Made by a program: the position numbers and the translations under genes. 64,000 nucleotides of DNA from a virus. Every line of letters starts with the position of its first letter. Within the stretch, counting starts at the first letter, position 1. Positions 2,381 through 27,126 of this stretch are shown one piece after another. Under the pieces are notes generated by a model. The model was not told where the DNA came from, did no database searches, and saw nothing but the letters and a program-made list of their open reading frames with translations. Location of the stretch: positions 1 through 64,000 of IMG/VR virus record IMGVR_UViG_3300031368_000001; one strand, written 5' to 3'.

Positions 2381-4663
2381 TTACTCCACTTTTAATCCTT
2401 CTAAAGTAACTCCAAAGGTTATAGGACTTGGATTAATCGTAAATGCACTTACCGCATTTGAGGTGGTTTCGTTTGCTGCTGATTCATCTTGCCCGCCAAT
2501 GTAATATGTCTTTGCATCACTTGGATTTAATCCTGTAGAGTCATAACTGAATGATGTACCATAGCCTGCCCCACAAGCCCCTTGTGTTTCTACCGTAGCA
2601 AGGTTTGTCAAATCATCCTCATCCGCTGCGTCTGATTCTCCTATTCTACACACCGCACACTCGTCAGTATCCCATGTAACTGTAACCGTTGTGGTTGCAC
2701 TTGGATATTCTACTGTGGGAAGGGGGACAATATTGCCAATAACGGGAGGGGTTGTATCTCCTTCACCTTCTCCTTCGTATGCTCCTTGGTCTGGTGCAGA
2801 TCCGACTAAAACTATATTTCCGCTAGAGTCCTTATAGAGCCATACATACTCGCCATCAACTCTCGTAAAATCAGCAACTGTAATTGTATTGGTTGCATAA
2901 TTCACCGCTGAAATTTGCATACAGTCAGCAGCCCCGACTGTTGCTCCCACACAGATATAATCAGCAGCTATCGCAGAAAGTGATGATCCCCATGTGCCAT
3001 CTTGGAAATAAAGGGCATCAGTAACGATAAGAGAAGTTCCGCTGCTGGTATCACCAGCATGAACAGTGGTAAGATACGTTCCAGCGTCTATTGCCCCCGA
3101 ACCTGATTGCAATCTAAGATCGGGCAATGTTGTACTTGTTGGGTCAGATAGATCAGCATTAACGAATTTTGGATCACCATAAGCCGAACAATATGCTGAA
3201 GAACCGGTGCAAAAATTATTACTGAAAGTATTGTAATCTGCTATTTGTGCACCTAACGCCCAATCTCCGCCGCCAGAACCATAATCATAAAAGATATTAT
3301 TCTTAATAACATTATCTACTGTAGGCCACCCTGCTCTTGCTGTTCCGCTTGTTTCTTCGGCCCACGTTCCTGCCATACTAAATGTAAGTGTTGTATCATT
3401 AACTACCGTACAGGTATGATACCCGTTATAGTTGATAGTATTTTCAAAATACATCGCAACGCCAGTTTTGAATCTGGGTTCTGCTGCTGTAAGCACTACC
3501 GTTACAGTACCATCCACACCCTCAATAGAGGCTATCGATGCCCAGGCATAACCACCAGCAGTTCTAAAATTCTTACCTTGCCACTGAGGGCCATCATTCT
3601 CATACCGACCACTGTGATAAATTGTGTTATTGTAGAACCTATTATCATCCGAGATAGACGATGAACCACATTTAAAATAGATCCCATTGTTCTGAGCATC
3701 ATAAACTTCATTATACCTTATAATGTTTTTGGGGGCAGTAATTGTCATACCGTCCCCTCCATCATCATCAGGAGGCGGGCCAGACGGGCCGAATCTATTT
3801 CCCTCTACTAAGTTAAATTTATCCTCAGCATACCCGTCATATATCTGTATATTCCGGTTGCCGTACTTCCCGTTAGTGTCCGGGCCATAAGTGCAACCTC
3901 CAGGAGAATCCATGCTTCCTTCGTGATGAAAGTAGTTATTTCTGATAACATTGTATTTTGTAAATGTTTCGAGATTATGATGGCCTCCTGAGTAAAAAGT
4001 ACAATCCTCAATCGTATTATATCCGCTGCCGTTATCATATGAAGGAACACCTATTTGCATTCCTCCGGCATCATTACATCCATCAGTTACATAGCCAGTA
4101 TTTTTAATCGTACACCCATGTATCCAGTTATGGGTACAGGCGGTTCCGCCTTCGGTTAATCCATCCCATATTTGAATGGTTGATGAGCCAGCACCATCAA
4201 TTACACAGTTAGTTATTTCGTTATATGAACCTCCATGTGTAATCATCAATACTCTGTTCATTGTTGCTTCAGGGCCAACATCAATCCCGTCAATCTTAAT
4301 GTAGCTCCTACCAACCAGACAGATGCCGTGATAATAAGTGGTATAAGTTGTTGTAGTATTTTTTATAATAGGCTGTTCGTCTGTATGCGCCTGATAAGTA
4401 ATAACGTGACCTGCCGAACCTGAATTAGCTGGATAGATATGGGTATTGTATATCCCATCTCTCAGAATAACCACATCATCATCATCTGCATTGGCATTGG
4501 CCGTGGTAAGAGAACATGGTTTAGCAATATCCTCCGAGTCAGCCCATGAGTCTGTGCCGTCTGATGCAACATAATTAGTCGTTGCAAAAGCAGATGAGGC
4601 AAAAAATAAAACTATGCCTATAAGAAATATTAATTTATTCAGGTGAGCTACCAATTTGTTCAT
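2381..4663 (-). CDS. secreted parallel beta-helix (pectate-lyase-like) protein with C-terminal Fn3-like domain
   Basis: About 760 aa from the ATG at 4663. The open frame runs upstream to 4897, but that part overlaps the preceding gene. The 4663 start gives a clean signal peptide (MNKLVAHLNK, then a hydrophobic stretch ending in ASSAFA). The body has spaced right-handed beta-helix coils with repeated N-x-I and G-x-x-N-x-I patterns, as in pectate lyase C-like and phage depolymerase proteins. The last ~110 residues resemble a fibronectin type III or Ig-like domain. Likely binds or degrades a polysaccharide. A Sec signal is odd for a virion fibre and suggests export from the host cell. It overlaps the upstream gene by 29 bases. 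Confidence 0.75.
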   Translation of the reverse strand: MNKLVAHLNKLIFLIGIVLFFASSAFATTNYVASDGTDSWADSEDIAKPCSLTTANANADDDDVVILRDGIYNTHIYPANSGSAGHVITYQAHTDEQPIIKNTTTTYTTYYHGICLVGRSYIKIDGIDVGPEATMNRVLMITHGGSYNEITNCVIDGAGSSTIQIWDGLTEGGTACTHNWIHGCTIKNTGYVTDGCNDAGGMQIGVPSYDNGSGYNTIEDCTFYSGGHHNLETFTKYNVIRNNYFHHEGSMDSPGGCTYGPDTNGKYGNRNIQIYDGYAEDKFNLVEGNRFGPSGPPPDDDGGDGMTITAPKNIIRYNEVYDAQNNGIYFKCGSSSISDDNRFYNNTIYHSGRYENDGPQWQGKNFRTAGGYAWASIASIEGVDGTVTVVLTAAEPRFKTGVAMYFENTINYNGYHTCTVVNDTTLTFSMAGTWAEETSGTARAGWPTVDNVIKNNIFYDYGSGGGDWALGAQIADYNTFSNNFCTGSSAYCSAYGDPKFVNADLSDPTSTTLPDLRLQSGSGAIDAGTYLTTVHAGDTSSGTSLIVTDALYFQDGTWGSSLSAIAADYICVGATVGAADCMQISAVNYATNTITVADFTRVDGEYVWLYKDSSGNIVLVGSAPDQGAYEGEGEGDTTPPVIGNIVPLPTVEYPSATTTVTVTWDTDECAVCRIGESDAADEDDLTNLATVETQGACGAGYGTSFSYDSTGLNPSDAKTYYIGGQDESAANETTSNAVSAFTINPSPITFGVTLEGLKVE

Positions 4664-5390
4664 CATCAACCCGTATTTTATCATAAATTCCATCCATTTG
4701 GCCGTCAAAACTAAGAAACATAAGATAGTCTGCATCGAAAGCGCTATTTCCATCCGTGACTTCCACCGTTGGTGTTTCTGGCTTAGTTGAATTTTCCGAA
4801 ATCCATATCCTCCCGACAGCGTTACCCCCTTCGCCTGTTTGCTTGGCATATTCCCACCAGACATGATAGGTAGTAGCAGCTGATAAAGCCGTAGCATCTA
4901 CATCCTGTCCACCCCCTAATACTAGCTTAGGTGTCTCATTCCATGCACACTTAAAAGAAAGGACAATAACTCCTCCGTTGTTGCCATTAATTTGAAACAG
5001 GGTACGATCCGTTGATAGACTAAAAGTATCGTAATTTACTATAAAATATCCATAAACGGGATTTGTGTCGGTTATTGCAATATCTATCGTATCGTAATCA
5101 CTACCATTAGCATCAATATCACACCCATAAACACCATCAAGTCCTGATGCCTGAAAATTCACCGCTGTAGTATCTGCGACAACCCATGTATTTTCACAAT
5201 TTACATAAGTCTCATCACCGCTATAACAAACAGATGAACTATCAAAATCTTCACTAAGTATATATGTTGGTGAAGCAGCAGCAGGTATCCCACTCCCAAT
5301 CAAACTAATCGCTGATACAGAGCCACCTATGGCAAGACAAATCAAAACACTGAGTAATATATATAATCGTTTTATACTAATTCTTTTCAT
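4635..5390 (-). CDS. secreted lectin-like (concanavalin/LamG-type) protein
   Basis: 251 aa. The N-terminus is a signal peptide (basic MKRISIKR, hydrophobic core, cleavage near SVSA). The rest is a beta-sandwich-like sequence with alternating strands and an acidic end, resembling LamG/concanavalin-like carbohydrate-binding modules; this is recognised by pattern only. It ends 29 bases inside the start of the beta-helix gene, so the two are translationally coupled and may act together on a glycan. One of five signal-peptide proteins in the leftward operon. Confidence 0.6.
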   Translation of the reverse strand: MKRISIKRLYILLSVLICLAIGGSVSAISLIGSGIPAAASPTYILSEDFDSSSVCYSGDETYVNCENTWVVADTTAVNFQASGLDGVYGCDIDANGSDYDTIDIAITDTNPVYGYFIVNYDTFSLSTDRTLFQINGNNGGVIVLSFKCAWNETPKLVLGGGQDVDATALSAATTYHVWWEYAKQTGEGGNAVGRIWISENSTKPETPTVEVTDGNSAFDADYLMFLSFDGQMDGIYDKIRVDDEQIGSSPE

Positions 5391-11725: not shown

Positions 11726-12142
11726 TTACCCTGTATTGTTTACTTTATACTTTCTCAACAACGCTGACTTATATCTCTCAAAAATTCTATCCGCTTTTTC
11801 TGGATCAGTATTACACACCAGAAGAAATCTTTTTCCCTCATCACGCAGGATTATGAAAGGAACAATGATATCCTCAACTCCTTCAAGAAATTTAGCAAAG
11901 ACCTGAGTTAAATTAGCTCGAAACACAAAAAAATCCTTAAGGAATTGACTTTCTTTACTCATTGCTTTTTTACTAATAATTGCTTTTTTACTACTCATTG
12001 CTTTTTTACTAATAATTGCTTTTTTACTAATAATTGCTTTTTTACTGGTAATTGCTTTTTTTTTACTGGTAATTGCTTTTTTTTTACTGATTATTCTTTC
12101 TCCCGTTATTTTCTCTACTCCCATTATTTTCTCTACTCCCAT
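11726..12142 (-). CDS. hypothetical tail-region protein with SKKAI repeats
   Basis: 138 aa. The ATG at 12142 overlaps the stop of the frameshifted chaperone product (TAATG), with AGGAGA just upstream. Residues 1-60 are short tandem repeats (MGVEKI twice, then SKKAI units of 6 residues), and the folded part is residues ~62-138 (SQFLKDFFVFRANL onward). A start within the repeats, such as MSKESQFLK, is also possible. The repeats are DNA tandem copies of 18 bp, so the N-terminus may be a recent expansion. Role unknown. Confidence 0.55.
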   Translation of the reverse strand: MGVEKIMGVEKITGERIISKKKAITSKKKAITSKKAIISKKAIISKKAMSSKKAIISKKAMSKESQFLKDFFVFRANLTQVFAKFLEGVEDIIVPFIILRDEGKRFLLVCNTDPEKADRIFERYKSALLRKYKVNNTG

Positions 12143-12779: not shown

Positions 12780-13799
12780 TTAGGCATAAATTCTTTGCCT
12801 GAAATAGGGATACTCAGTGCTGGAATTGGGTCCATCTGCCAGTGGCGTAAATGTCAAAGCCATCTCAGCATCATCATCACTTTCTGAAATTATTTTCTTG
12901 GTGGCATCGGCCTTAACTGCACATTTCCAAAAAGTCCACTCAATTTTTTTTCCATACTCATTTTGTGGTAGAATATGAATTTCATAGTGGTCAACGGCAG
13001 AATCACTTTCCTGGATAACAACATCTGAGATAGCAGCATAATCGTAGATAGCCTGCAAAGCAGGATCACCCACAGCGATAGTCACTCCAGAATAGATGAA
13101 TATTGTGCCAGATTTTTCGTGTATGCCATAGTCTGTATTCAGCGTATATTTCTTATCTTTTACATTATTCAGCAAGACTATATCATTGAGGATTGATTGG
13201 GTACCATTGACTACTGCAGCCCCCGCTACGCCATCAGTGATAGCTTCATCATTTACAAAGGTACCGGTCACTCCTACCAGATAAAGAGTTCCAGATTCCA
13301 CAGTCCCATCTACAAATGCAATGTGCCCCGTGGCTCCGCCAGCGCCTGTCACTGTATCACCATTCGCAAAAGCTCCGGTTCCACCATCGTAAAGAAGCTT
13401 TACACAAGTCACTCCCTTTTTGGCGAGTGCAAATGCTCTATCCAAAGCAGAAGGTACAGTAACACTTTCAGGGGCAGCAAAGGTGTAATTATCTCCAGCC
13501 TGAGTGTAGAGCGCTTTAACGCCATTAAATAAAATCGCAAAGTTATCGCCATTCTCCGAGATGATGGTTATCGGGATCGAGTAATCAGTCTGAACTATCC
13601 GTTCATAGATTTTTTTCTTAGTACCATCACGGGGCGAATATCTGTTTTTAACGGTGTCTGCAATTTTAAGCTCTGTCTCCATACAATAACCTAGATCGAT
13701 TCCTTCATTGACTACTGCGTTATTAATGATAGGATATGCTATAACAATGCCCTTCGGGACGGTGACATCGTCAATGGTTTGAATACCTTGTATTGCCAT
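12780..13799 (-). CDS. major tail tube protein
   Basis: 339 aa. Gene order (after tail terminator, before chaperone) and composition (beta-rich, VEFTFW-type strands, C-terminal STEYPYFRQRIYA) fit a tail tube protein. Between about 150 and 205 it carries two copies of a GxFxxGxxVTG module (GAFANGDTVTG and GTFVNDEAITDG), an insertion also seen four times in the protease/scaffold protein at 20392. The inserted module probably decorates the tube surface. Strong local support from synteny, moderate from sequence. Confidence 0.65.
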   Translation of the reverse strand: MAIQGIQTIDDVTVPKGIVIAYPIINNAVVNEGIDLGYCMETELKIADTVKNRYSPRDGTKKKIYERIVQTDYSIPITIISENGDNFAILFNGVKALYTQAGDNYTFAAPESVTVPSALDRAFALAKKGVTCVKLLYDGGTGAFANGDTVTGAGGATGHIAFVDGTVESGTLYLVGVTGTFVNDEAITDGVAGAAVVNGTQSILNDIVLLNNVKDKKYTLNTDYGIHEKSGTIFIYSGVTIAVGDPALQAIYDYAAISDVVIQESDSAVDHYEIHILPQNEYGKKIEWTFWKCAVKADATKKIISESDDDAEMALTFTPLADGPNSSTEYPYFRQRIYA

Positions 13800-13823: not shown

Positions 13824-14297
13824 TTAATACCAGCCAACATCACGATGATAAAATTCACCATAATGTCCGAGATAAGGATATCTAAAAGGACAAACTTGCT
13901 TTTCTCCAGCAATTATCTTTTCAGCATCACGAGGCCAGCCTTTTTTTATAATGTCTTTATGTCTTTTAGTAAGATCCTTTTTCGCAGCTGCTCTAACTAA
14001 AACATCTTCGATTTCAATGGCACTTGCATCATAATCTCGAATGAGTTTTCTTGCAGGTCCAAGAAATTCTTTTTCAACAGCTGATTCTGGTACTTTAGGC
14101 CACCAAGATGGAATTTGTCCTGAAGTTTTTAAGCCTAGTTCCATTTCAGCTTTTGCTACTTTTTTATTTATTAGAGTATCAGTTTCTTTTTCCATTTGTT
14201 TTTTCTGTTTTTCTGTTGGTTTCTTCATTATAGTCAATCCTGCAAATTTTTCACTCCCAGTCGTTATATCTTCGCTAAATGGTTTTATTTTATCCAT
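13824..14297 (-). CDS. tag-family protein, displaced member (GEFYHRDVGWY tag)
   Basis: 157 aa. It starts with MDKIKPFSEDITTG and ends with GEFYHRDVGWY, the two terminal motifs shared by the array at 22.2-26.9 kb, but it sits alone between the tail tube and tail terminator genes. The middle (AIEIEDVLVRAAAKKDLTKR, then IIKKGWPRDAEKIIAG) resembles the helical core of the members at 25426 and 26207. Likely a transposed copy. Function unknown; see the array. Confidence 0.75.
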   Translation of the reverse strand: MDKIKPFSEDITTGSEKFAGLTIMKKPTEKQKKQMEKETDTLINKKVAKAEMELGLKTSGQIPSWWPKVPESAVEKEFLGPARKLIRDYDASAIEIEDVLVRAAAKKDLTKRHKDIIKKGWPRDAEKIIAGEKQVCPFRYPYLGHYGEFYHRDVGWY

Positions 14298-15582: not shown

Positions 15583-16779
15583 TTATACAGTTCCTGACGA
15601 ACTGCTTGAAGATTCAGAACTACTTGAAGATTCAGAACTTGAACTAGATTCAGATGAACTGCTTGAAGATTCAGAACTTGAACTAGACTCAGATGAGCTG
15701 CTTGATGATTCAGAACTTGAGCTTGATGAAGACTCTGAGCTGCTTGATGATTCAGAAGAGCTGCTTGATGATTCAGAAGAGCTGCTTGATGATTCAGAAC
15801 TTGAAGATGAAGATTCTGAAGATGAGCTGCTTGATGATTCAGAACTGGAGCTTGATTCAGATGAGCTGCTTGATGATTCAGAACTGGAGCTTGATTCAGA
15901 TGAGCTGCTTGATGATTCAGAACTGGAGCTTGATGATTCAGATGAGCTGCTTGATGATTCAGAACTTGAACTAGATTCAGATGAGCTGCTTGATGATTCA
16001 GAACTGGAGCTTGATGATTCAGATGAGCTGCTTGATGATTCAGAACTTGAGCTTGATTCAGACGAGCTGCTTGATGAAGACTCTGATGATGAGCTACTTG
16101 ATGATTCTGAACTGCTGCTTGATTCAGACGAACTACTTGATGATTCAGAACTGGAGCTTGATTCAGACGAACTACTTGATGATTCAGAACTGGAACTTGA
16201 TTCAGATGAGCTACTTGATGAAGATTCTGATGATGAACTGCTTGATGATTCAGATGAACTGCTTGATGATTCAGATGAGCTGCTTGATTCAGATGAGCTG
16301 CTTGATTCAGAAGAGCTACTTGATGACTCAGAACTTGATGAAGAAAGAGGTTCAGTGAAGGCCATTCTCACGAATTTTCCACTAGCAAAGAAGTATTGTA
16401 TGGCTACATCCCCTCCAGTTTCATTTTTCGCTGAAAATTTATCTACAACAAGATCGCCAAGCTCATTATTCCAGACAGTTCCAAGTTCAGCAATATTCCA
16501 TGCAATATCAGGCCCATTATTAAATTTAAGAGTAAGATTTCCATCAGACAGTATAAAACCAACAGTAGCAGGAGTATTATATCCAAGCTCGATTGAATGT
16601 CCAGCAGCAGCAGTCCATGTAGCTTCATGTTTGAGTCTTAACAATCCTCCAACATCTAAAGAGAAAGTAGTACCTGTTGATATCACTACATTTGCAGACA
16701 GATATTCTGTAGGAAAAGAATCAGAAAAGAGCTGAGCTAAAAGCTGCTCTGGGAGCAGAGTTTTCATCTTTGAGGGCAT
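15583..16779 (-). CDS. Ser-rich repeat protein with N-terminal beta domain
   Basis: 398 aa. Residues ~1-145 form a compact beta-like domain (FSLDVGGLLRLKHEATW, then IELGYNTPATVGFILS); the remaining ~250 residues are Ser5-6/Glu repeats ending in GTV. The N-terminal part probably attaches to the virion and the Ser/Glu part extends out as a stalk. It lies inside the head-tail gene run rather than with the fibres, so it may be a head decoration or neck fibre (inference). Long plus-strand open frames over this stretch are artefacts of the repeat. Confidence 0.65.
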   Translation of the reverse strand: MPSKMKTLLPEQLLAQLFSDSFPTEYLSANVVISTGTTFSLDVGGLLRLKHEATWTAAAGHSIELGYNTPATVGFILSDGNLTLKFNNGPDIAWNIAELGTVWNNELGDLVVDKFSAKNETGGDVAIQYFFASGKFVRMAFTEPLSSSSSESSSSSSESSSSSESSSSSESSSSSSESSSSSSSESSSSSSSESSSSSESSSSSSESSSSSESSSSSSESSSSSESSSSSSSESSSSSSSESSSSSESSSSSSESSSSSSESSSSSSESSSSSESSSSSSESSSSSSESSSSSSESSSSSESSSSSSESSSSSESSSSSSSESSSSSSESSSSSSESSSSSSESSSSSESSSSSSSESSSSSSESSSSSESSSSSSESSSSSESSSSSESSSSSSGTV

Positions 16780-18588: not shown

Positions 18589-19542
18589 TTACGCTATTAC
18601 GGTTTGAAATAAATACCCGGCGGTGGAACACACGCACTTCTCATCTGAAATTTGATGCTGAATACGGATTACATCAGACTTCTTTGGTTTATCCTCGTAT
18701 GTTTCAGCCTGTAAACCTGCACTCTTTAGAGTGTAAGCAAAACTCATCGTTTTCTTAGACGGTCTTGGATTGACTATTCCAACCCATACATTCTTTCCCC
18801 AGACACGTGAAATTGCTTCTGCAACACCAGGCATAGTGGTAATTTCTCTGGCACCTGGAAACACTGCATTAAGACCAAACAGCCTTCTTGGAAAACCATC
18901 GTCGGTTAATTGCCGGGAATCTTGTTCTCTCATTAAGGCACGAATAGCAGGATGTCGTCTGACTGTTCTCCAAACGGTAACAGGAATAGCAATCGTATTT
19001 GGCTCAGCAGCATTCAGGGATACTTTTTCCCTTGCATCCTCAATATCCCCTTCAGGATCAGAGTTTACAAAATCATCCCACATATTTCCACCGGCAAGGG
19101 CATTGATGTAAGTACCATCAAAGTACACACCATTTGCTACTGCTACATTTGTAAACATGTCTGCAATTCGGACTTCATAGTTAAGCAATAAGAGCTCAAG
19201 AGTGATTTCCTGAGTAGTGACTGCAAGATCCATATACTTCTTCCACTTTTTAAACTCGCGCCAGTCAATTGCTTTTTCCAGCGTATGCTCTTCGCAGTGA
19301 TAACTATCGGTCGATGTTTTCCAATCGAACGTGGTTGCCCTTGCACCCAGTGCTCTGATATCATCATAAGAACTGTTAAGATTGGTCTTATCAAAAATAA
19401 AATAAGTTCCATCTTCTTCACCCTCAGGGACGTCTACATAAGGAGCAAGCTTTGATGCAACCAGTCCATTCTGCGGGTAAGCAATGGCCATTTTTGTTAA
19501 GACCGGGTTGATCAAAACCTGATCTGTTTTGGTAATAAACAT
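18589..19542 (-). CDS. major capsid protein (HK97-type fold expected)
   Basis: 317 aa. Size, position after the protease/scaffold and decoration genes, and features typical of capsid proteins: N-terminal arm ending KLAPYVDVPEGEEDGTYFIF, spine-helix-like stretch (LAVTTQEITLELLLLNYEVR), a conserved IAIPVTVWRTVRRHPAIRAL segment and C-terminal IRIQHQISDEK. The ribosome binding site is GGAGG. Likely the most abundant virion protein. Confidence 0.8.
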   Translation of the reverse strand: MFITKTDQVLINPVLTKMAIAYPQNGLVASKLAPYVDVPEGEEDGTYFIFDKTNLNSSYDDIRALGARATTFDWKTSTDSYHCEEHTLEKAIDWREFKKWKKYMDLAVTTQEITLELLLLNYEVRIADMFTNVAVANGVYFDGTYINALAGGNMWDDFVNSDPEGDIEDAREKVSLNAAEPNTIAIPVTVWRTVRRHPAIRALMREQDSRQLTDDGFPRRLFGLNAVFPGAREITTMPGVAEAISRVWGKNVWVGIVNPRPSKKTMSFAYTLKSAGLQAETYEDKPKKSDVIRIQHQISDEKCVCSTAGYLFQTVIA

Positions 19543-19843: not shown

Positions 19844-20302
19844 TTAATCAGCCTTGACTACGATAGTACGAGTCAGAAACAGCTTAAATTTTGCTTTGGC
19901 TACACATCCTTCTAAAGCGATTCCTGCGATCATTTTACCAGTATAGCTAGCGCCAGTAATTGTTTGAAACCAACCATTATCAGAATCCACAGCAGCATTG
20001 ATGGCTTCCACCAATGCATTTCTGATTATTCCAGCACCATCATAACAATATGCCCATGTAGGACCAAACAATACGACCTTGACAGTCTCACCCTCGAGAC
20101 CATCTTCTTGGGCAACGCCTTCAATGATAGCTCCAATAGTTGTATCATCACCAGCTTCCAACGCGTGTACCTGATAATCATTTGAACCAGGTTTTACGGC
20201 ATGGTACTGATAAACACGTTCATCGTTGTTATTTAATTCTACAGTATAGCTCCCATGAAATGGATTATCCAAGGGAATAGCTGGAGTTGCTCTTCTAGAC
20301 AT
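19844..20302 (-). CDS. capsid decoration / head stabilisation protein (DUF2190-like)
   Basis: 152 aa, between the protease/scaffold and capsid genes, the usual slot for a decoration protein. The sequence is beta-rich (YTVELNNNDERVYQYHAVKP, GEEVKVVLFGP-type strand, Gly-rich turns), similar in size and order to DUF2190 head proteins. The 3' end is repeated in tandem downstream. Confidence is mainly from synteny. Confidence 0.6.
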   Translation of the reverse strand: MSRRATPAIPLDNPFHGSYTVELNNNDERVYQYHAVKPGSNDYQVHALEAGDDTTIGAIIEGVAQEDGLEGETVKVVLFGPTWAYCYDGAGIIRNALVEAINAAVDSDNGWFQTITGASYTGKMIAGIALEGCVAKAKFKLFLTRTIVVKAD

Positions 20303-20391: not shown

Positions 20392-22197
20392 CTACTTTCC
20401 TTGAGTATCCATGACAGCCTTAAAGGCTACATCATAGGAGACTTTATTCTCCTCGGCGTACTTGGTTATTTCACGATCAAGCTTAGCGCCTTCTTCGTCA
20501 ACACCAGTTGGGGTAATTTCTTCTTCCTCTTCAATTACCTTACCAAATGTATCCAGAGGAACAAGCAGCTTGCCCTCTTTATGACGATCAATGATCGCAC
20601 TAAAGAGCTCAGAGAATTTTTGCCATGGAGTCTTTTCATCCTCACCCTCAGCAAACTTGAACATGTTCGTCCAGTCAAGGGCATTGGCATAATTCAATAA
20701 TCCAAGTTCATCAACCACTGCCGGGGCTAAGCCTTTCTTTTTCAGATCCTCGGCCCATCTCTGTACATCTTTCATATGAGATGCACGTTTCTCCGCTGAT
20801 CTTTCTTTTTCAACGATCCCGATTTTGCTTTCTTGAGCGGTGAGCTTGGATGTCAGATCAGAAATCTCGGTATTTTTTGCATTTAGCTGTTCGCTGAGAG
20901 CAGTTAATTGTTCCTGAACCTGCTTTAAATCCTCAGCATCCTTCTTGGGTGGTTCAGGGTATTTATATGGTGATGGCTTTTTGCCAACATTCGCCTTAGC
21001 CTTGGAGTCCGCTCCAACGATCTCTTCTCCCTTTTTGAAGTCACCTTCAACAGCGAGAAACACAGAGATTTTTTCAGGTTCTACTTTCCTGACTGTTCCG
21101 ATGAGCTTGCTATCTGCACCCTTAACTTTCTCACCTTCTTTAAATTCACCCTCAACTGCATTTATTTCAACCATAACAGTTTTTCCGGCAAACTTATTGG
21201 GATCTTCCTCACCGACAACAGCCTTTGCCTTTGACTTTGTTCCGGTTATTTCTTCGTCGTCCTGAAAGTTCTCTCCTGAGGTAAGAACAATGACTAATTT
21301 CTTTTCATCGAACTCCTCAAGCGTACCGACAACCTTTGATGCATTGCCAGTCACTTCCTCTCCAACCTCAAAATCCCCGGAGATGGATTTGATCGGTACA
21401 GTTATTTTCTTCATATTGTCACCTCCTAGCCAAAATGTTTCTTCCTCACTGTCTGGCCGAACAATCGGTAGACAGAAAGAATCTTCGCGGTTATCCTCGC
21501 CGTACCTTGCAACGATATCACTAAGACTCTTTATCCTTGGAATATCGGCTCCCAACAGAGCAACTCTCCGGAGAACCGGCCCAAACTCTTGATTATCAAA
21601 AACAAAATTACGATATATCTCTACTGAAGGATAACGATATGCACCATTTTTAATAATGTCAACAATTTGTTTTGGGACATCTTTGAAATCTGCATAAAGT
21701 TTTTTCCCTTTAGTCCAAACTTTGGATACCCATCCGGCAGACGGAAGTCCAGATTTTTGTAATAGATCTTGATTTTCATCATGTCCAAGTACCACCATAG
21801 GTGGTCTATGCGAATCTTTCAGTTTAGAAAAATTTGCGATGATTTTGTTAAGATCTTCTTCAGTATACTTTTTAGATTCTGCCTGGCCTATTTCAAAAAT
21901 TTGAACTCCGTTACATTCACCAAATTCTTGAAAGTTTCCACTAAGTTGTGTGAGAAGAATAGGACAACCATGCTGGTATGCGTGTATACACTGCTTGATT
22001 GGCTCGAGGTCTGAAAAGTCATCTGTCATCGGACATTCGGGCGCAAAGTGACATAAAGATTTTGGCCAGGCATATTCAGGGTAAAGCTCAGTTTCAGGAA
22101 TTGGATATGGATAAGTTTCTTGACCTGTTGAATATGTCCATGGCAGTGAAAAATCTTCCTTTGGAAAAGGGAAGGGATGTTCGTAAATTTTTTTCAT
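20392..22197 (-). CDS. fused prohead protease and scaffold (Mu gpI-like)
   Basis: 601 aa. Residues ~85-225 match Mu gpI-type prohead proteases: KYTEEDLNKIIANF, then VVLGHDENQ (His139), PSAGWVSKVW, GAYRYPSVEIYRN (Ser191) and LRRVALLGADIPRIKSL. Residues ~270-420 hold four copies of a GDFxxGEEVxGxxSK module. Residues ~430-490 are coiled coil, and the rest is acidic and helical, as expected of a scaffold released by self-cleavage. A Cys-containing N-terminal extension (1-80) is unusual. It sits just downstream of the tag-family array, whose members could be its substrates (inference). Confidence 0.8.
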   Translation of the reverse strand: MKKIYEHPFPFPKEDFSLPWTYSTGQETYPYPIPETELYPEYAWPKSLCHFAPECPMTDDFSDLEPIKQCIHAYQHGCPILLTQLSGNFQEFGECNGVQIFEIGQAESKKYTEEDLNKIIANFSKLKDSHRPPMVVLGHDENQDLLQKSGLPSAGWVSKVWTKGKKLYADFKDVPKQIVDIIKNGAYRYPSVEIYRNFVFDNQEFGPVLRRVALLGADIPRIKSLSDIVARYGEDNREDSFCLPIVRPDSEEETFWLGGDNMKKITVPIKSISGDFEVGEEVTGNASKVVGTLEEFDEKKLVIVLTSGENFQDDEEITGTKSKAKAVVGEEDPNKFAGKTVMVEINAVEGEFKEGEKVKGADSKLIGTVRKVEPEKISVFLAVEGDFKKGEEIVGADSKAKANVGKKPSPYKYPEPPKKDAEDLKQVQEQLTALSEQLNAKNTEISDLTSKLTAQESKIGIVEKERSAEKRASHMKDVQRWAEDLKKKGLAPAVVDELGLLNYANALDWTNMFKFAEGEDEKTPWQKFSELFSAIIDRHKEGKLLVPLDTFGKVIEEEEEITPTGVDEEGAKLDREITKYAEENKVSYDVAFKAVMDTQGK

Positions 22198-22225: not shown

Positions 22226-22804
22226 TTATTCAGCATAAGATATATCAGGATGCATAAATCCGTCTTTATCAATATCCGCAAATCCCCAGGCCTTTATTAC
22301 AACATTTGCATCTGAACCTTTGGGAGCAACCTTTGGATCTGTATATCGAGTAAATCCAGTTTCAGGTCCCTTCTTATAGAGTTTTTCCACATCGCTGATT
22401 TCTACTTTTGAGAAACCCATTTTCAGCAATGCGTCTCTTTGCTCTTTTTCATAATATCCTGCAAAACCAGGAAGCTTCTTATTCTCAGGAACACTTTCCA
22501 GAAGTTTTTTCTCTTCAGATGTTAATTCTCGATTTATCGAAATACTATCACCTGTGGTGATATCATCACTAAAAGCTTTAATCTTTGGTTGATCCAAAGG
22601 TTCCTGAGAAACTTCGTTAGGTTCATGAGAAACTTCGTTAGGTTCATGAGGAACTTCGTTAGGTTCATGAGGAACTTCGTTAGGTTCATGAGGAACTTCG
22701 TTAGGTTCATGAGGAACTTCGTTATAATTTCTATCGCCTTCACCCCCTGTTGTTTCTTCTACTCTTCCCGTCGTTATGTCTTCTGAAAAAGGTTTTATTT
22801 CCAT
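22226..22804 (-). CDS. tag-family protein with two N-terminal motifs and HEPNEVP repeats
   Basis: 192 aa. It starts MEIKPFSEDITTG, then has six tandem PHEPNEV heptads (a 21-bp DNA repeat), then a second motif IKAFSDDITTG, as if a new N-terminus had been added in front of an old one. The C-terminal tag is absent; the protein ends HPDISYAE. The core includes LLKMGFSKVEISDVEKLYKK. It lies immediately upstream of the protease/scaffold gene. Confidence 0.75.
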   Translation of the reverse strand: MEIKPFSEDITTGRVEETTGGEGDRNYNEVPHEPNEVPHEPNEVPHEPNEVPHEPNEVSHEPNEVSQEPLDQPKIKAFSDDITTGDSISINRELTSEEKKLLESVPENKKLPGFAGYYEKEQRDALLKMGFSKVEISDVEKLYKKGPETGFTRYTDPKVAPKGSDANVVIKAWGFADIDKDGFMHPDISYAE

Positions 22805-22827
22805 GATCTAACCTCGTTAATTAAAAA

Positions 22828-23445
22828 CTAATACCAGCCTACATCTCTGTGATAATATTCGCCAAGCTTTATTCCCCAACTTTTCCCGGGAATCCACATT
22901 TTCTTCATTACTTCAAGTAAATTTCTCCAGTACTCCTCAAATGCCCTCTTTTCTTTATCAAGAATTCTTGGATCAATCTTGCCACGCTCGTCTCTGGGAA
23001 TAGCTTTTTCCCACTCTACCCAGTGAAATTCTTTTGCTTTTTTTGTGGTTTCTGGATCTTGGAAATCTTCGCTCTGGAAGTTTTTATTCTTGAGGTTTTC
23101 GGAATTTTTGGAGATTAAAATTTTTGGAAATATCTTTTTAAATAATTTTGGCCAGCCAACTACCAAGATTTGTTTTTGCTTTTCAACAATATCCTTACCA
23201 GCGAATAATGCTTGAGCTGCATTATCTACCTCTTTTGACTCAGTTTCAAGGGTATCTTTAACTCTCTTATATCCTGGTTCAAGACCGTCACCAGTTGCTA
23301 GTAGCATCCATTGACTATAAAGTTTTCTGCGTGTGATAGGGTTGATTTGGAAGATATCAGTGGGAGCTGAAGAATTCAAAGATTCATCGTATGTTTCGAC
23401 ATGACCCTGAATATCTGATGAGAAAGATTTTATTGTTGTTGCCAT
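22828..23445 (-). CDS. tag-family protein
   Basis: 205 aa. N-terminus MATTIKSFSSDIQGHVETYD (the IQGHVExYDES version of the motif, also in 25035-25424), C-terminus GEYYHRDVGWY. The core has AAQALFAGKDIVEKQKQIL, close to the helical core of the 13824 and 26207 members. Positively charged middle. Part of a same-strand run of seven members; the intergenic gap upstream (23446-23588) holds two 20-bp tandem copies and no gene. Confidence 0.75.
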   Translation of the reverse strand: MATTIKSFSSDIQGHVETYDESLNSSAPTDIFQINPITRRKLYSQWMLLATGDGLEPGYKRVKDTLETESKEVDNAAQALFAGKDIVEKQKQILVVGWPKLFKKIFPKILISKNSENLKNKNFQSEDFQDPETTKKAKEFHWVEWEKAIPRDERGKIDPRILDKEKRAFEEYWRNLLEVMKKMWIPGKSWGIKLGEYYHRDVGWY

Positions 23446-23588
23446 AAAGTTACCCTAACAGACATAAAAAATTTTTGTCAACCCTTTTTTAAACAAGAAT
23501 AGTGATATTTAAACAAGAATAGTGATATTTAAGTAAGAATAATGGAAAAAGAAAAAATTAGTCAAGGTTTTTTTAGTATACTCTTTTT

Positions 23589-24242
23589 TTAGTACCACCC
23601 AACATCTCTGTGGTAATATTCACCAGATTTCTCCAAAAACCCTTCAACAACCGGTATATATCCAGCACTTCTCAAAAATTCTCCAGCTTTGTGTCTTTTC
23701 AGGGCTGCTAAATCCTTCTTACTTAATTTTTTTGCCCATTCAGGTTTTGTGAGTCGCATTATTTTCTTGCCAGCCTCTTCTTGAGTAACACCAAGATCTC
23801 TCATCAAACCTTGCGTAACGGAACGATCGGTTATTCCCGCTTTCTGAGCTGCCTGAAATCTAAGCCATCTGTTATCCTGCTTCCTTAAAAATTCCACTAA
23901 ATCTTTATTATATTTCTGGGAGTTCCAACCCTGATACTGAGTATGTTTAACATCATCCCAAAGACGATTTTTTTCTTCATGAATCCAGGCTTCCCGAAGA
24001 TGTGTAGCGCCTACCATCTGTATGTAGAGATTAGCTTTATCTACATAAGTTTTGGCATTTTTTAGATCATCAGCGGTTACTTCAGACGGTTTTTTGATGG
24101 GACCTGTATAAATAGGGGTGTGTTTTGGCTGGGTAGGAACCTCAATTTTAGCACCAGGGAAATCTATAATATCACCTGGATCAAAGAAAGTTCCTGTGGA
24201 TATATCTTCTGAGAAGGGTTTAAGAGTATTCATATTAATCAT
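23589..24242 (-). CDS. tag-family protein
   Basis: 217 aa. Starts MINMNTLKPFSEDISTG, ends GEYYHRDVGWY. Core: AKTYVDKANLYIQMVGATHL and QGLMRDLGVTQEEAGKKIMR, with a stretch WDDVKHTQYQGWNSQKYNKD that is shared in pattern with the 25426 and 26207 members (LWKDEKYLQLQ..., TWVDWQYLDPG...). So at least three members share a helical segment around a WxD-x-QYL-x-G-x-xS-x-YNK pattern. Confidence 0.75.
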   Translation of the reverse strand: MINMNTLKPFSEDISTGTFFDPGDIIDFPGAKIEVPTQPKHTPIYTGPIKKPSEVTADDLKNAKTYVDKANLYIQMVGATHLREAWIHEEKNRLWDDVKHTQYQGWNSQKYNKDLVEFLRKQDNRWLRFQAAQKAGITDRSVTQGLMRDLGVTQEEAGKKIMRLTKPEWAKKLSKKDLAALKRHKAGEFLRSAGYIPVVEGFLEKSGEYYHRDVGWY

Positions 24243-24252
24243 TTCCTTATGT

Positions 24253-24945
24253 TTAATACCACCCTACATCTCTGTGGTAATACTCACCAAACGAACCTAG
24301 GTTAGCTTCACCTTTAATTTCTACACCTTTTGGTGTGTAGGCTTTTCTTCCTTTTATGATCACATCTACTTTTCTTTTCCATATTCCTTTATGTTCTTTG
24401 AGATATTTCAGTGCCTGATTCACCGACCAGCCACTCTTTTCCACTAAATTGCTCACTTCCCACCGGGTTACTCCCCAGGGTGGAATTCCTCTATGCTCCT
24501 CACCGCCTTTTATACTCTGTACTTTCAGAATATTATTTCTAGAATAACCCATATCCCGTAGAATCTTATCATGAAATGTAAAATCTCCTCCAGTCCCTAT
24601 AGCCAAAGCAGCTCCTAATTGTGCTACATACCGATTCAGTATTTTTGAATCAAGCTTAAGTTTTGGATTTTCTTTATTAAGCACTGCCGCCACTTTTTCT
24701 GCTCTTTCATCCCATATTTCCTGACGAATCCCTCCACCAGGTTGCACTGGGCTATTTCTATAAATTGGTTCTTTTCTTTCTTTTGGCTGTAGAGTAACAA
24801 GTTTTAAAATATCTTCGAGCAGACCAAACTCATCCGGGACACCGTAAGTAATATCGTCAGAGAATGGTTTAACAAACGAACCTTCTGGTATTTCTGGAAG
24901 ACTTGTTTGTTCATTTATATCGTCAGAAAATGATTTCATGTCCAT
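24253..24945 (-). CDS. tag-family protein with doubled N-terminal motif
   Basis: 230 aa. It begins MDMKSFSDDINEQ and repeats the motif at residue ~24 (VKPFSDDITYG). It ends SFGEYYHRDVGWY. The middle has AAVLNKENPKLKLDSKILNR and a helix-turn-helix-like KSGWSVNQALKYLKEHKGIW. No family recognised. It is separated from 23589-24242 by 10 bases. Confidence 0.75.
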   Translation of the reverse strand: MDMKSFSDDINEQTSLPEIPEGSFVKPFSDDITYGVPDEFGLLEDILKLVTLQPKERKEPIYRNSPVQPGGGIRQEIWDERAEKVAAVLNKENPKLKLDSKILNRYVAQLGAALAIGTGGDFTFHDKILRDMGYSRNNILKVQSIKGGEEHRGIPPWGVTRWEVSNLVEKSGWSVNQALKYLKEHKGIWKRKVDVIIKGRKAYTPKGVEIKGEANLGSFGEYYHRDVGWY

Positions 24946-25034
24946 GATTTATTTAATATCACCCTTTGTCCTTATGATAGTATTTGTAACACAAGAATTT
25001 TCCGTTAATTTTTTTATTTATAGCGACCCAGATT

Positions 25035-25424
25035 TTATTCTCCTCTCTGTGCAAATGGGCTTTTACCATCATTGATTCTCTTCATTGCATGTTTTATAGC
25101 TTTATCAACTATCCGTTTAGTAGGTTTATTTCCTTTAAGAAGATAATTAATTTCATCCTTTGTTAATGTAGGCACAAGAGATGGTATTTCTATTTCTTTG
25201 CCATCTATACCTACACCGATAGATAACTCAGTAGATATATGCCCATCTGGTCTTTTTAATGTACCTAAAAATCCCGGGCCTTTAGGAGTACCATCCGTCC
25301 TTAATCCCCATCCTTTTTCTCTAACTGTTTCTTTATGATCGAAAAAATCAGCTTGAGACCTGGTAAAAGATTCATCATAATTTTCAACATGCCCCTGGAT
25401 ATTTGAGGAAAATGGCTTGAACAT
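25035..25424 (-). CDS. tag-family N-terminus fused to a conserved phage domain, no C-terminal tag
   Basis: 129 aa from the ATG at 25424 (MFKPFSSNIQGHVENYDESF). The frame is open to 25502, but that part overlaps the previous gene. Residues ~45-128 (RTDGTPKGPGFLGTLKRPDG, then SIGVGIDGKEIEIPSLVPTL, ending INDGKSPFA) form a module I have seen in many unrelated phage proteins near head genes, with no known activity. It shows that the N-terminal motif is added to different bodies. Confidence 0.75.
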   Translation of the reverse strand: MFKPFSSNIQGHVENYDESFTRSQADFFDHKETVREKGWGLRTDGTPKGPGFLGTLKRPDGHISTELSIGVGIDGKEIEIPSLVPTLTKDEINYLLKGNKPTKRIVDKAIKHAMKRINDGKSPFAQRGE

Positions 25425-25425
25425 C

Positions 25426-26205
25426 TTAATACCACCCCACGTCTCTGTGATAATATTCACCATATAATCTAAATGTTTTTTCACTAACAGGATATTTACC
25501 ATCCAGAAGCTTTATGCCTCCTAAAATTCCCCATCCTCTTACAATGATTTGTGTTTCATGAGGATTGAGTATTTCACCTTTTGCTGCTTTCTCCACAGTA
25601 AGCCTAACATCTCTGGCAGATACATTTAAAGTTTTGATAGCTTTTGATGCATGATAGGTATACGTATCTTTTTTTGGATCATGCCACCACCATGTAGGAA
25701 CTACCCCAGGACTTGCATAAATTTTTTCCTGTTCTTTTGCTGAAAGTGCAATCTGTTCCTTTCCTCTTGCTTTTACAGGTTTTTTCACAAGTTCATCGAT
25801 CTGAGCCTTAAGATGTTTCTGAAGCTCCTTCGGAATGGGTTCTTTACCTTCAAGGATTCTTGATAGGCGATAGTCATTATCATGAAATTCGAGAAAGTTT
25901 AAAAGCTCTTTATTATATGCTGAAGATTTAGGGCCTTGAAGCTGTAGATATTTCTCGTCTTTCCAGAGACTATCTAATTTATACTCTATCCACTTCTTTC
26001 TATTATCCTCTATAATACCAGCCTGATCAAAATATATTTTGACTTTTTCATCTAAGTCCTTACCTTGTTGAAGCTGATTAACAGTGACATCGGAGTAAAA
26101 AATAGGAGTTGGTTCTGTAAGATTTATTCCTATAGAATCCGGTGTGGAATCTACTCCTGTGAAATCTGCTCCTGTAGATATAGTTTCTGAAAAGGATCTG
26201 AGCAT
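25426..26205 (-). CDS. tag-family protein
   Basis: 259 aa. N-terminus MLRSFSETISTGADFTG, C-terminus YGEYYHRDVGWY. Core: QGKDLDEKVKIYFDQAGIIE, then YLQLQGPKSSAYNKELLNFL, then ARDVRLTVEKAAKGEILNPH and RGWGILGG. This core aligns by eye with 26207-26935 (VEKAIKRAAAGNITEADKRM) and 13824-14297. The longest fully tagged member. Confidence 0.75.
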   Translation of the reverse strand: MLRSFSETISTGADFTGVDSTPDSIGINLTEPTPIFYSDVTVNQLQQGKDLDEKVKIYFDQAGIIEDNRKKWIEYKLDSLWKDEKYLQLQGPKSSAYNKELLNFLEFHDNDYRLSRILEGKEPIPKELQKHLKAQIDELVKKPVKARGKEQIALSAKEQEKIYASPGVVPTWWWHDPKKDTYTYHASKAIKTLNVSARDVRLTVEKAAKGEILNPHETQIIVRGWGILGGIKLLDGKYPVSEKTFRLYGEYYHRDVGWY

Positions 26206-26206
26206 C

Positions 26207-26935
26207 TTAATACCATCCTACATCTCTGTGATAATATTCACCAAAACTTCTTATTGCCCTCATTGTCTTTTCAGGAAATTCGCGTTTTCCTTTTATAATC
26301 CTCTCTGCTTCATATGAAGGCCAGCTTAATCGTATCATCCGTTTATCTGCTTCGGTTATATTTCCTGCTGCAGCTCTCTTAATTGCTTTTTCCACATCAG
26401 CGGCTGAGGCCCCCTGACCTTCTATTACTTTTTTTATGTAATAGGTTAAACTTTTTGTGGCTGGTACGGGATCCCACCATGGAGGAACATGCCCACCAGT
26501 ATTCCATATTCGTTCCTTATCGCGCTTTGTTATTCCAGGAACTTTTTTCTTGATTAGATCTTCAATCTCTTTCTTCATTGCCGCTACTTTCTCGGTAGGC
26601 ATATGGGTTCCTACATCTTTTATGCCTCTAAAACCAAACTCTTTATCTGCTGTCTGACAAGCCTTCAAGAAATTCTTGTTATAATAATCTCCTTGAAAAC
26701 CACCTGGATCTAAATACTGCCAATCTACCCAGGTATCTTTTAGTTTTTTCAGAATGAAATTTTTGTGCTTGGTATTAATAACTCTAGCATATTTGAAATA
26801 TAATCCTAATTTCTCTTTTTGGGTTCTTCCATGTCTGATATATCCTATCGTTACATCTTCAGGAGCGAAGGAATCTATTGTACTATCTATATAATTTTTA
26901 ACACTACCCTGTACGCTATCTGAAAAAGTTTTCAT
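26207..26935 (-). CDS. tag-family protein, first of the array
   Basis: 242 aa from the ATG at 26935 (MKTFSDSVQGSVKNYIDST). AGAGG lies just before it; the upstream frame to 27025 is only translated tandem repeats (YKLLTYKLLTYKL). Ends SFGEYYHRDVGWY. Core: LYFKYARVINTKHKNFILKK, WQYLDPGGFQGDYYNKNF and SAADVEKAIKRAAAGNITEA. It begins the array in the direction of transcription. Confidence 0.75.
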   Translation of the reverse strand: MKTFSDSVQGSVKNYIDSTIDSFAPEDVTIGYIRHGRTQKEKLGLYFKYARVINTKHKNFILKKLKDTWVDWQYLDPGGFQGDYYNKNFLKACQTADKEFGFRGIKDVGTHMPTEKVAAMKKEIEDLIKKKVPGITKRDKERIWNTGGHVPPWWDPVPATKSLTYYIKKVIEGQGASAADVEKAIKRAAAGNITEADKRMIRLSWPSYEAERIIKGKREFPEKTMRAIRSFGEYYHRDVGWY

Positions 26936-26988
26936 TTTTGCCTCTAGTTTATAAGTAAGTAGTTTATAAGTAAGTAGTTTATAAATAA

Positions 26989-27126
26989 TTATTTTATGAT
27001 TAATACAGGTATAAATCCATTCCAACCAAATTCATAATAGGGGTATTTTTCATTTAGATCCTCTATGATGTTCCAGCGAGTTTTCAGTGAAAGATATGAT
27101 TCAAGGTAATACCGAATAATGTTCAT
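26989..27126 (-). CDS. small hypothetical protein
   Basis: 45 aa, MNIIRYYLESYLSLKTRWNI to NGFIPVLIIK. It begins two bases after the stop of the next gene upstream. Aromatic-rich, no signal peptide. The ribosome binding site is weak, so translation would depend on coupling. Kept because it fills the gap in the operon and looks protein-like. Confidence 0.4.
   Translation of the reverse strand: MNIIRYYLESYLSLKTRWNIIEDLNEKYPYYEFGWNGFIPVLIIK

Follow-up and report, generated by a model that had tools for sequence, protein, structure and literature searches.

Within the first 64,000 bases (the window) of the 108,285-base IMG/VR record IMGVR_UViG_3300031368_000001, we observe a set of small phage genes whose products share a short N-terminal leader motif and, in six of nine cases, an 11-residue C-terminal tag. 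The peptides are under selection, are attached to bodies that are in part unrelated to one another, and belong to genes linked to the head genes. We consider it probable that the two peptides act as address labels that load different small proteins into the prohead, likeliest through the protease/scaffold core, and that these proteins stay with the DNA and enter the cell at infection. None of the rivals we tested fits as well as this cargo reading. The record is itself a fragment; our motif scans covered all six frames of its entire length, and the part beyond the window was examined as three loci. Coordinates are window positions, with features beyond 64,000 given as record positions (G000:C1), and genes are referred to below by their first coordinate. 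The tagged genes are as follows.

13824-14297, minus strand: tagged protein of 157 residues; leader motif KPFSEDITTG at 14256-14285, C-terminal tag GEFYHRDVGWY at 13827-13859; a paralogue of both 25426 and 26207, with the major tail protein gene directly downstream
22226-22804, minus strand: tagged acidic protein of 192 residues; two leader motifs, at 22766-22795 and 22550-22579, with NEVPHEP repeats between them
22828-23445, minus strand: tagged protein of 205 residues; leader motif KSFSSDIQGHVETYDES from 23430, C-terminal tag at 22831-22863
23589-24242, minus strand: tagged protein of about 214-217 residues, the start ATG being either 24242 or 24233; leader motif KPFSEDISTG at 24192-24221, C-terminal tag at 23592-23624; N-terminal half paralogous to 25426
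24253-24945, minus strand: tagged protein of 230 residues; two leader motifs, at 24916-24936 and 24841-24870, C-terminal tag at 24256-24288; body unlike the rest
24956-24988, minus strand: decayed C-terminal tag YKYYHKDKG*Y, in the gap after the gene that follows in this list
25035-25424, minus strand: protein of 129 residues with a leader and without a C-terminal tag; leader motif KPFSSNIQGHVENYDES from 25418; body (residues 39-129) a widespread phage head-associated domain
25426-26205, minus strand: tagged protein of 259 residues; leader motif RSFSETISTG at 26170-26199, C-terminal tag at 25429-25461
26207-26935, minus strand: tagged protein of 242 residues; leader motif MKTFSDSVQG from residue 1, at 26906-26935, C-terminal tag at 26210-26242
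89230-89592, outside the window: ninth gene with a leader, starting MVEQIKPFSEDISTG; shortly after the portal gene at 93022-94659

The leader motif, K-x-F-S-x-x-I, lies near the N terminus of eight genes in the window and nine in the record. Seven of these form an unbroken run ahead of the head protease, another belongs to the tail block, and the ninth follows a short way behind the portal gene. An earlier sequence-only reading had described the seven adjacent genes and the one at 13824-14297, all of which are present at those places on the minus strand and carry the motif; its set was incomplete in that it overlooked the ninth gene, the second motif copies and the decayed C-terminal tag. These second copies begin at residue 76 of 22226-22804 and residue 26 of 24253-24945, a doubling that suits a linear binding or processing signal. 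The ends of the motif read ITTG, ISTG, ITYG, INEQ, IQG or VQG. Across the 159 open reading frames (ORFs) of the record, the pattern [KR]-x-F-S-x-x-[IV] has 15 matches, 11 of them in the nine tagged genes and four internal to other ORFs, compared with a mean of 1.4 and a maximum of 5 in shuffled record proteins. A scan of IMG/VR for the motif gave as its sole match a near-identical sibling record that carries the ninth gene, and a search of that fragment for the array found none.

The C-terminal tag is the more strictly conserved of the two peptides and is found only on proteins with the leader. In six frames of the whole record, HRDVG occurs only at the C termini of six genes (13824-14297, 22828, 23589, 24253, 25426 and 26207), which bears out the earlier statement that six genes end in GE(Y/F)YHRDVGWY. 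Between any two copies (15 pairs) there are 2 to 6 silent changes over approximately 5.7 silent sites, giving a mean proportion of silent differences (pS) of 0.70 against 0.024 for replacement differences (pN), and among the residues there is one change only, Y to F, in one copy. The codons of the leader motif likewise reflect many different choices among its copies. Silent drift with almost fixed residues in the tag, together with the varied leader codons, shows that selection, and strong selection, acts on the peptides and not on the DNA. Because gene ends abut gene starts, the array contains tag-to-tag DNA repeats of 39-77 bases, which could be taken to mean that the repeats serve the DNA itself as recombination or gene-exchange sites or as overlapping regulatory signals. 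With silent sites near saturation, residues fixed and leader codons varied, that explanation is largely refuted, and we give it almost no credence.

The tag has been lost once, leaving a decayed remnant behind 25035-25424 that scores 35, where intact copies score 68-72 and nothing else in the six frames exceeds 28. An intact tag is also missing from 22226-22804. Its possible diverged version, FMHPDISYAE, is only suggestive, as 17 of 2,833 background ORFs reach an equal score. Presence of the leader on all nine genes and of the tag on six, with one loss, would suit a division of labor in which only the leader targets the head and the tag is a stability or partner-binding signal, for example for a phage protease or chaperone. 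We regard this as quite unlikely, however, because the tag is far stricter than the leader and marks only proteins that carry it. Exact scans with the back-translated tag across IMG/VR and approximately 85,000 prokaryote genomes returned seven matches, none of them the C-terminal tag of a real protein: they lie in other frames, internally in sugar-hydrolase-like proteins, or in a 15-residue frame. The search for the 11-residue tag in other phages that the sequence-only reading had proposed therefore gave no other C-terminal occurrence in these collections, to which its uniqueness is confined (metagenome contigs were not covered).

Compared with the tags removed, the bodies fall into two kinds. 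Those of 25426 and 26207 share similarity across 208 residues (1.8e-27), the body of 13824 matches 26207 (1e-13) and 25426 (2.8e-5), that of 23589 matches 25426 (1.7e-11), and that of 22828 matches 13824 weakly (3.4e-4), whereas the bodies of 24253, 25035, 22226 and 89230 show no convincing match to other tagged bodies. The earlier claim that the bodies mostly differ in sequence therefore holds for the latter group and fails for 25426, 26207 and 13824, which are clear paralogues, and for the matching parts of 23589 and 22828. By sequence comparison, the tagged set is in part a duplicated family of three to five paralogues and in part foreign bodies under the same leader. Searches of the tagged proteins against Pfam, PHROG, NCBIfam and the PDB returned no family. 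An alignment-based search for relatives of the paralogous bodies likewise returned none, with none convincing in phage records, and a fold search with the weak model of the 242-residue protein from 26207 (predicted local distance difference test, pLDDT, of 60) gave no match. A marginal match of 23589 to HEC-02B in a defence-gene library (E 0.005) was taken as chance.

Two of the foreign bodies exist without the leader elsewhere. Podophages contain relatives of the 25035 body (residues 39-129), and IMG/VR contains 294. In phage MEP301 the domain is a stand-alone gene flanked by a head-tail connector and the region for capsid assembly; in L066 its neighbors are connector and capsid genes, and in L041 and L077 it lies between terminase and portal. 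A P22-type portal (L039; PF16510, 1.4e-144) and a head protein (L044; phrog_992) each carry it fused at their end, and it also lies near the N terminus of proteins of 1,000-2,800 residues. None of the relatives examined starts with the leader motif, whereas here a leader of approximately 37 residues precedes the domain. The domain model is good, and its fold matches only phage proteins of its own family, one of them annotated with a lytic transglycosylase domain; no solved structure in the PDB matched it. This head-associated domain is named by no library searched here. L125 has the 89230 body in untagged form (52% over residues 42-120), with a T4-type portal (phrog_213), protease (phrog_207) and capsid gene (phrog_138) immediately downstream. 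Since both bodies are found untagged near head genes elsewhere, the leader has been gained or lost in two independent cases. In AlphaFold models of the 26207 and 25035 proteins, moreover, the N-terminal region is unstructured (residues 1-26 and 1-36, respectively), with a pLDDT of approximately 41 for the leader of the latter and approximately 80-94 for its domain. The leader is thus separable from the body.

These observations bear on the notion that the common ends merely reflect conservation at the termini of a duplicated family working in the host cytoplasm, with the head neighborhood incidental. Paralogy over the bodies of 25426, 26207 and 13824, with weaker links to 23589 and 22828, is what such a family would look like. 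The leader, however, is also found on two unrelated bodies, both of whose untagged families adjoin head genes, and it is unstructured; we judge the notion improbable.

The array lies in the late structural region, beside the following genes.

20392-22197, minus strand: head maturation protease (phrog_976, 1.1e-33) whose long C-terminal half is scaffold-like
19844-20302, minus strand: small protein at the position of the decoration protein (DUF2190), assigned by gene order only
18589-19542, minus strand: major capsid protein (phrog_1005, 1.5e-51)
12780-13799, minus strand: major tail protein (phrog_807), with two copies of the repeat GxFxxGExVxG

The array is followed by the protease/scaffold, the decoration-position gene and the capsid gene, which is the Mu-type head order; its placement immediately upstream of the protease/scaffold, as first read from the sequence, is confirmed. 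Relatives such as L112 have the protease directly after the portal/Mu-F-type gene, without an array, and in 14 related head modules we found no pair of ORFs with shared terminal peptides approaching these. The absence of the tags from these modules makes them an accessory gain of this lineage, and the system looks lineage-specific. A scan for promoters did no better than chance. Possible regulatory sites are seen in two sets of repeats, one of 15-base tandem units at 26945-27004, close upstream of where the first array gene starts, and one of 20-base units at 23488-23527, which lies upstream of 22828-23445.

The same neighborhood would suit proteins that are structural or morphogenetic parts, such as pieces of the core, neck or shell accessories, that dock by their tags and are not cargo for the host cell. 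The location among structural genes, with one member between tail genes, and the fusion of homologous bodies to portal and head proteins agree with this. On the other side, nine genes of varied length and body, none of them present in the 14 related head modules, look accessory, and one member has a decayed tag behind it. We hold this explanation to be the most serious of the rivals, albeit clearly less probable than cargo loading.

The protease/scaffold is a candidate receptor for the tags, processing enzyme, or both. Three copies of GxFxxGExVxG lie between its two halves, and such repeats occur elsewhere in the record only in the major tail protein. Both repeat-bearing genes are directly downstream of the sites of tagged genes in the window, namely the array and the moved gene 13824-14297. 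This co-location in two cases may be coincidence and offers a loose lead for naming a putative receptor. One could imagine from it a two-ended address system on a Mu-type head, with a removable N-terminal leader and a fixed C-terminal tag both read by the GxFxxGExVxG repeats, which would sort cargo to head and tail; we rate this elaboration as a long shot.

For the cargo reading as such, we envisage that the tagged proteins would be made together with the head proteins, and that the leader, the tag or both would attach to the core as it assembles, the protease/scaffold being the simplest partner. The shell would then close around the tagged proteins before the DNA enters, the leader possibly being cut by the head protease, and at infection the proteins would leave with the DNA and presumably act as cargo in the cell. 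The peptides and their genomic setting thus lead us to infer binding to the core, packaging, cleavage and injection.

The closest likeness is to the internal proteins of phage T4, a diverse set conserved only in the targeting sequence (PMC3012670). Like IPI, IPII and IPIII, the proteins described here are small, diverse and mostly basic, carry a short conserved leader at the N terminus and occur in a phage with a head protease. For T4 IPIII, a stretch of ten residues suffices: targeting depends on residues 4 and 7, processing on residues 8 and 10 (PMC9026906). In the T4 genome, ipII and ipIII have the leader MKTYQEFIAE and ipI has MKTFKEFTST. Compared with this capsid-targeting sequence, the lysine is matched, as are the aromatic residue at position 4 and the acid at position 6 (here MKTFSDS and KPFSEDI), and an aromatic equivalent of residue 4 is present in all leaders here. 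T4 has gp21 and gp23, whereas this phage has a phrog_976 protease and a phrog_1005 capsid protein in Mu-type order. Beyond what is found in the T4 internal proteins, the set has a second, stricter tag at the C terminus, nine members and some doubled leaders. As far as sequences can tell, it resembles the T4 system in its working and is not a member of that family, because the T4 cleavage motif and a T4-type protease and capsid are absent.

Several points weigh against cargo loading. Residue 7 of the T4 targeting sequence (F) is D, N, S or T here, the leaders lack the T4 cleavage motif I/L-x-E, and the shared motif K-x-[FY]-x-[ED] could, at that length, have converged by chance. The capsid protein, compared with its relatives, has no N-terminal extension that could show the cleavage preference of the protease. 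That the bodies are variable is only half true, several being duplicates, and with no functional family for them in the libraries named above, no injected activity was identified. One tagged gene lies within the tail gene block. The absence of tags from the 14 related modules means that Mu-type head assembly does not need them. The phage, finally, is uncultured and known here from its genes alone. The earlier proposal of a system that packs variable proteins into the capsid consequently gains from the selected peptides, the unstructured and separable leader, the two bodies found untagged near head genes and the late structural location, and loses from the missing I/L-x-E motif and the partly duplicated bodies.

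Other phages offer partial precedents. T4 Alt is packaged and injected, with propeptides processed at both ends (PMC9026906), but it is a single enzyme whose ends are not a tag common to a gene array. In phage P1, the N-terminal 30 residues of DarB suffice to package a reporter, and the Dar proteins have no common motif that was found and no described C-terminal tag (PMC9024508); DarB is a second precedent for an N-terminal packaging signal. The SPN3US paralogues gp53 and gp54 have identical N-terminal 15 residues (PMC5694885), and for the protease of that phage a C-terminal propeptide was proposed as targeting, among propeptides with several processing sites (PMC7411985). Unlike the peptides described here, SPN3US/phiKZ-type propeptides are mostly >100 residues long, are cut after glutamate motifs and belong to a giant-phage head module. 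Among polyvalent and giant injected phage proteins (PMC5512222), the 25035-type body lies near the N terminus of proteins of 1,000-2,800 residues and in a lytic-transglycosylase protein, whereas here it is a tagged protein of 129 residues. Short N-terminal motifs are doubled in giant proteins with this domain at L050:9878-15583 (FSTEELFPS), L101:9869-12955 (F[IV]DPDAA) and L047:9764-11908 (TPEGF), which may point to a more general doubling of leader motifs among giant virion proteins.

If our reading is correct, tag-based loading of capsid cargo is not specific to T4 and P1 and would have evolved anew in a head module unrelated to theirs, in a two-tag rather than a one-tag form. The tag would then be a portable packaging label of approximately 11 residues, and the nine uncharacterised proteins would be candidates for delivery. 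It would also provide a way to spot such cargo from sequence only, as small genes by head genes whose terminal peptides are common and whose bodies are not.

Elsewhere in the record, 89807-93022 (L008:5807-9022, minus strand), directly downstream of the portal gene, encodes 1,071 residues in which Pfam identifies a domain of ATP-dependent DNA ligases (PF01068, 8e-14) interrupted by an intein-like insert of LAGLIDADG type (PF14528), a result that replaces a reading as a head-morphogenesis gene. Between the portal and the array, a run of genes at 76344-87962 resembles glycosyltransferases and SAM methyltransferases. The product of 71638-74829 (L007:7638-10829, minus strand; 1,063 residues) combines NADAR (PF08719) and DprA-like (PF02481) domains with a stretch that is weakly Gam-like by PHROG, making a multi-domain counter-defence protein possible. 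Two minus-strand genes are repetitive: 15583-16779 encodes 398 residues that are mostly a serine-glutamate repeat (SSSSSE units), with the opposite strand also open, and 11726-12142, a small gene of the tail block, starts with short direct repeats (SKKKAI units). In L125, the portal protein at 2863-5148 contains an apparent intein, the insert ending in AVVHNSAY.

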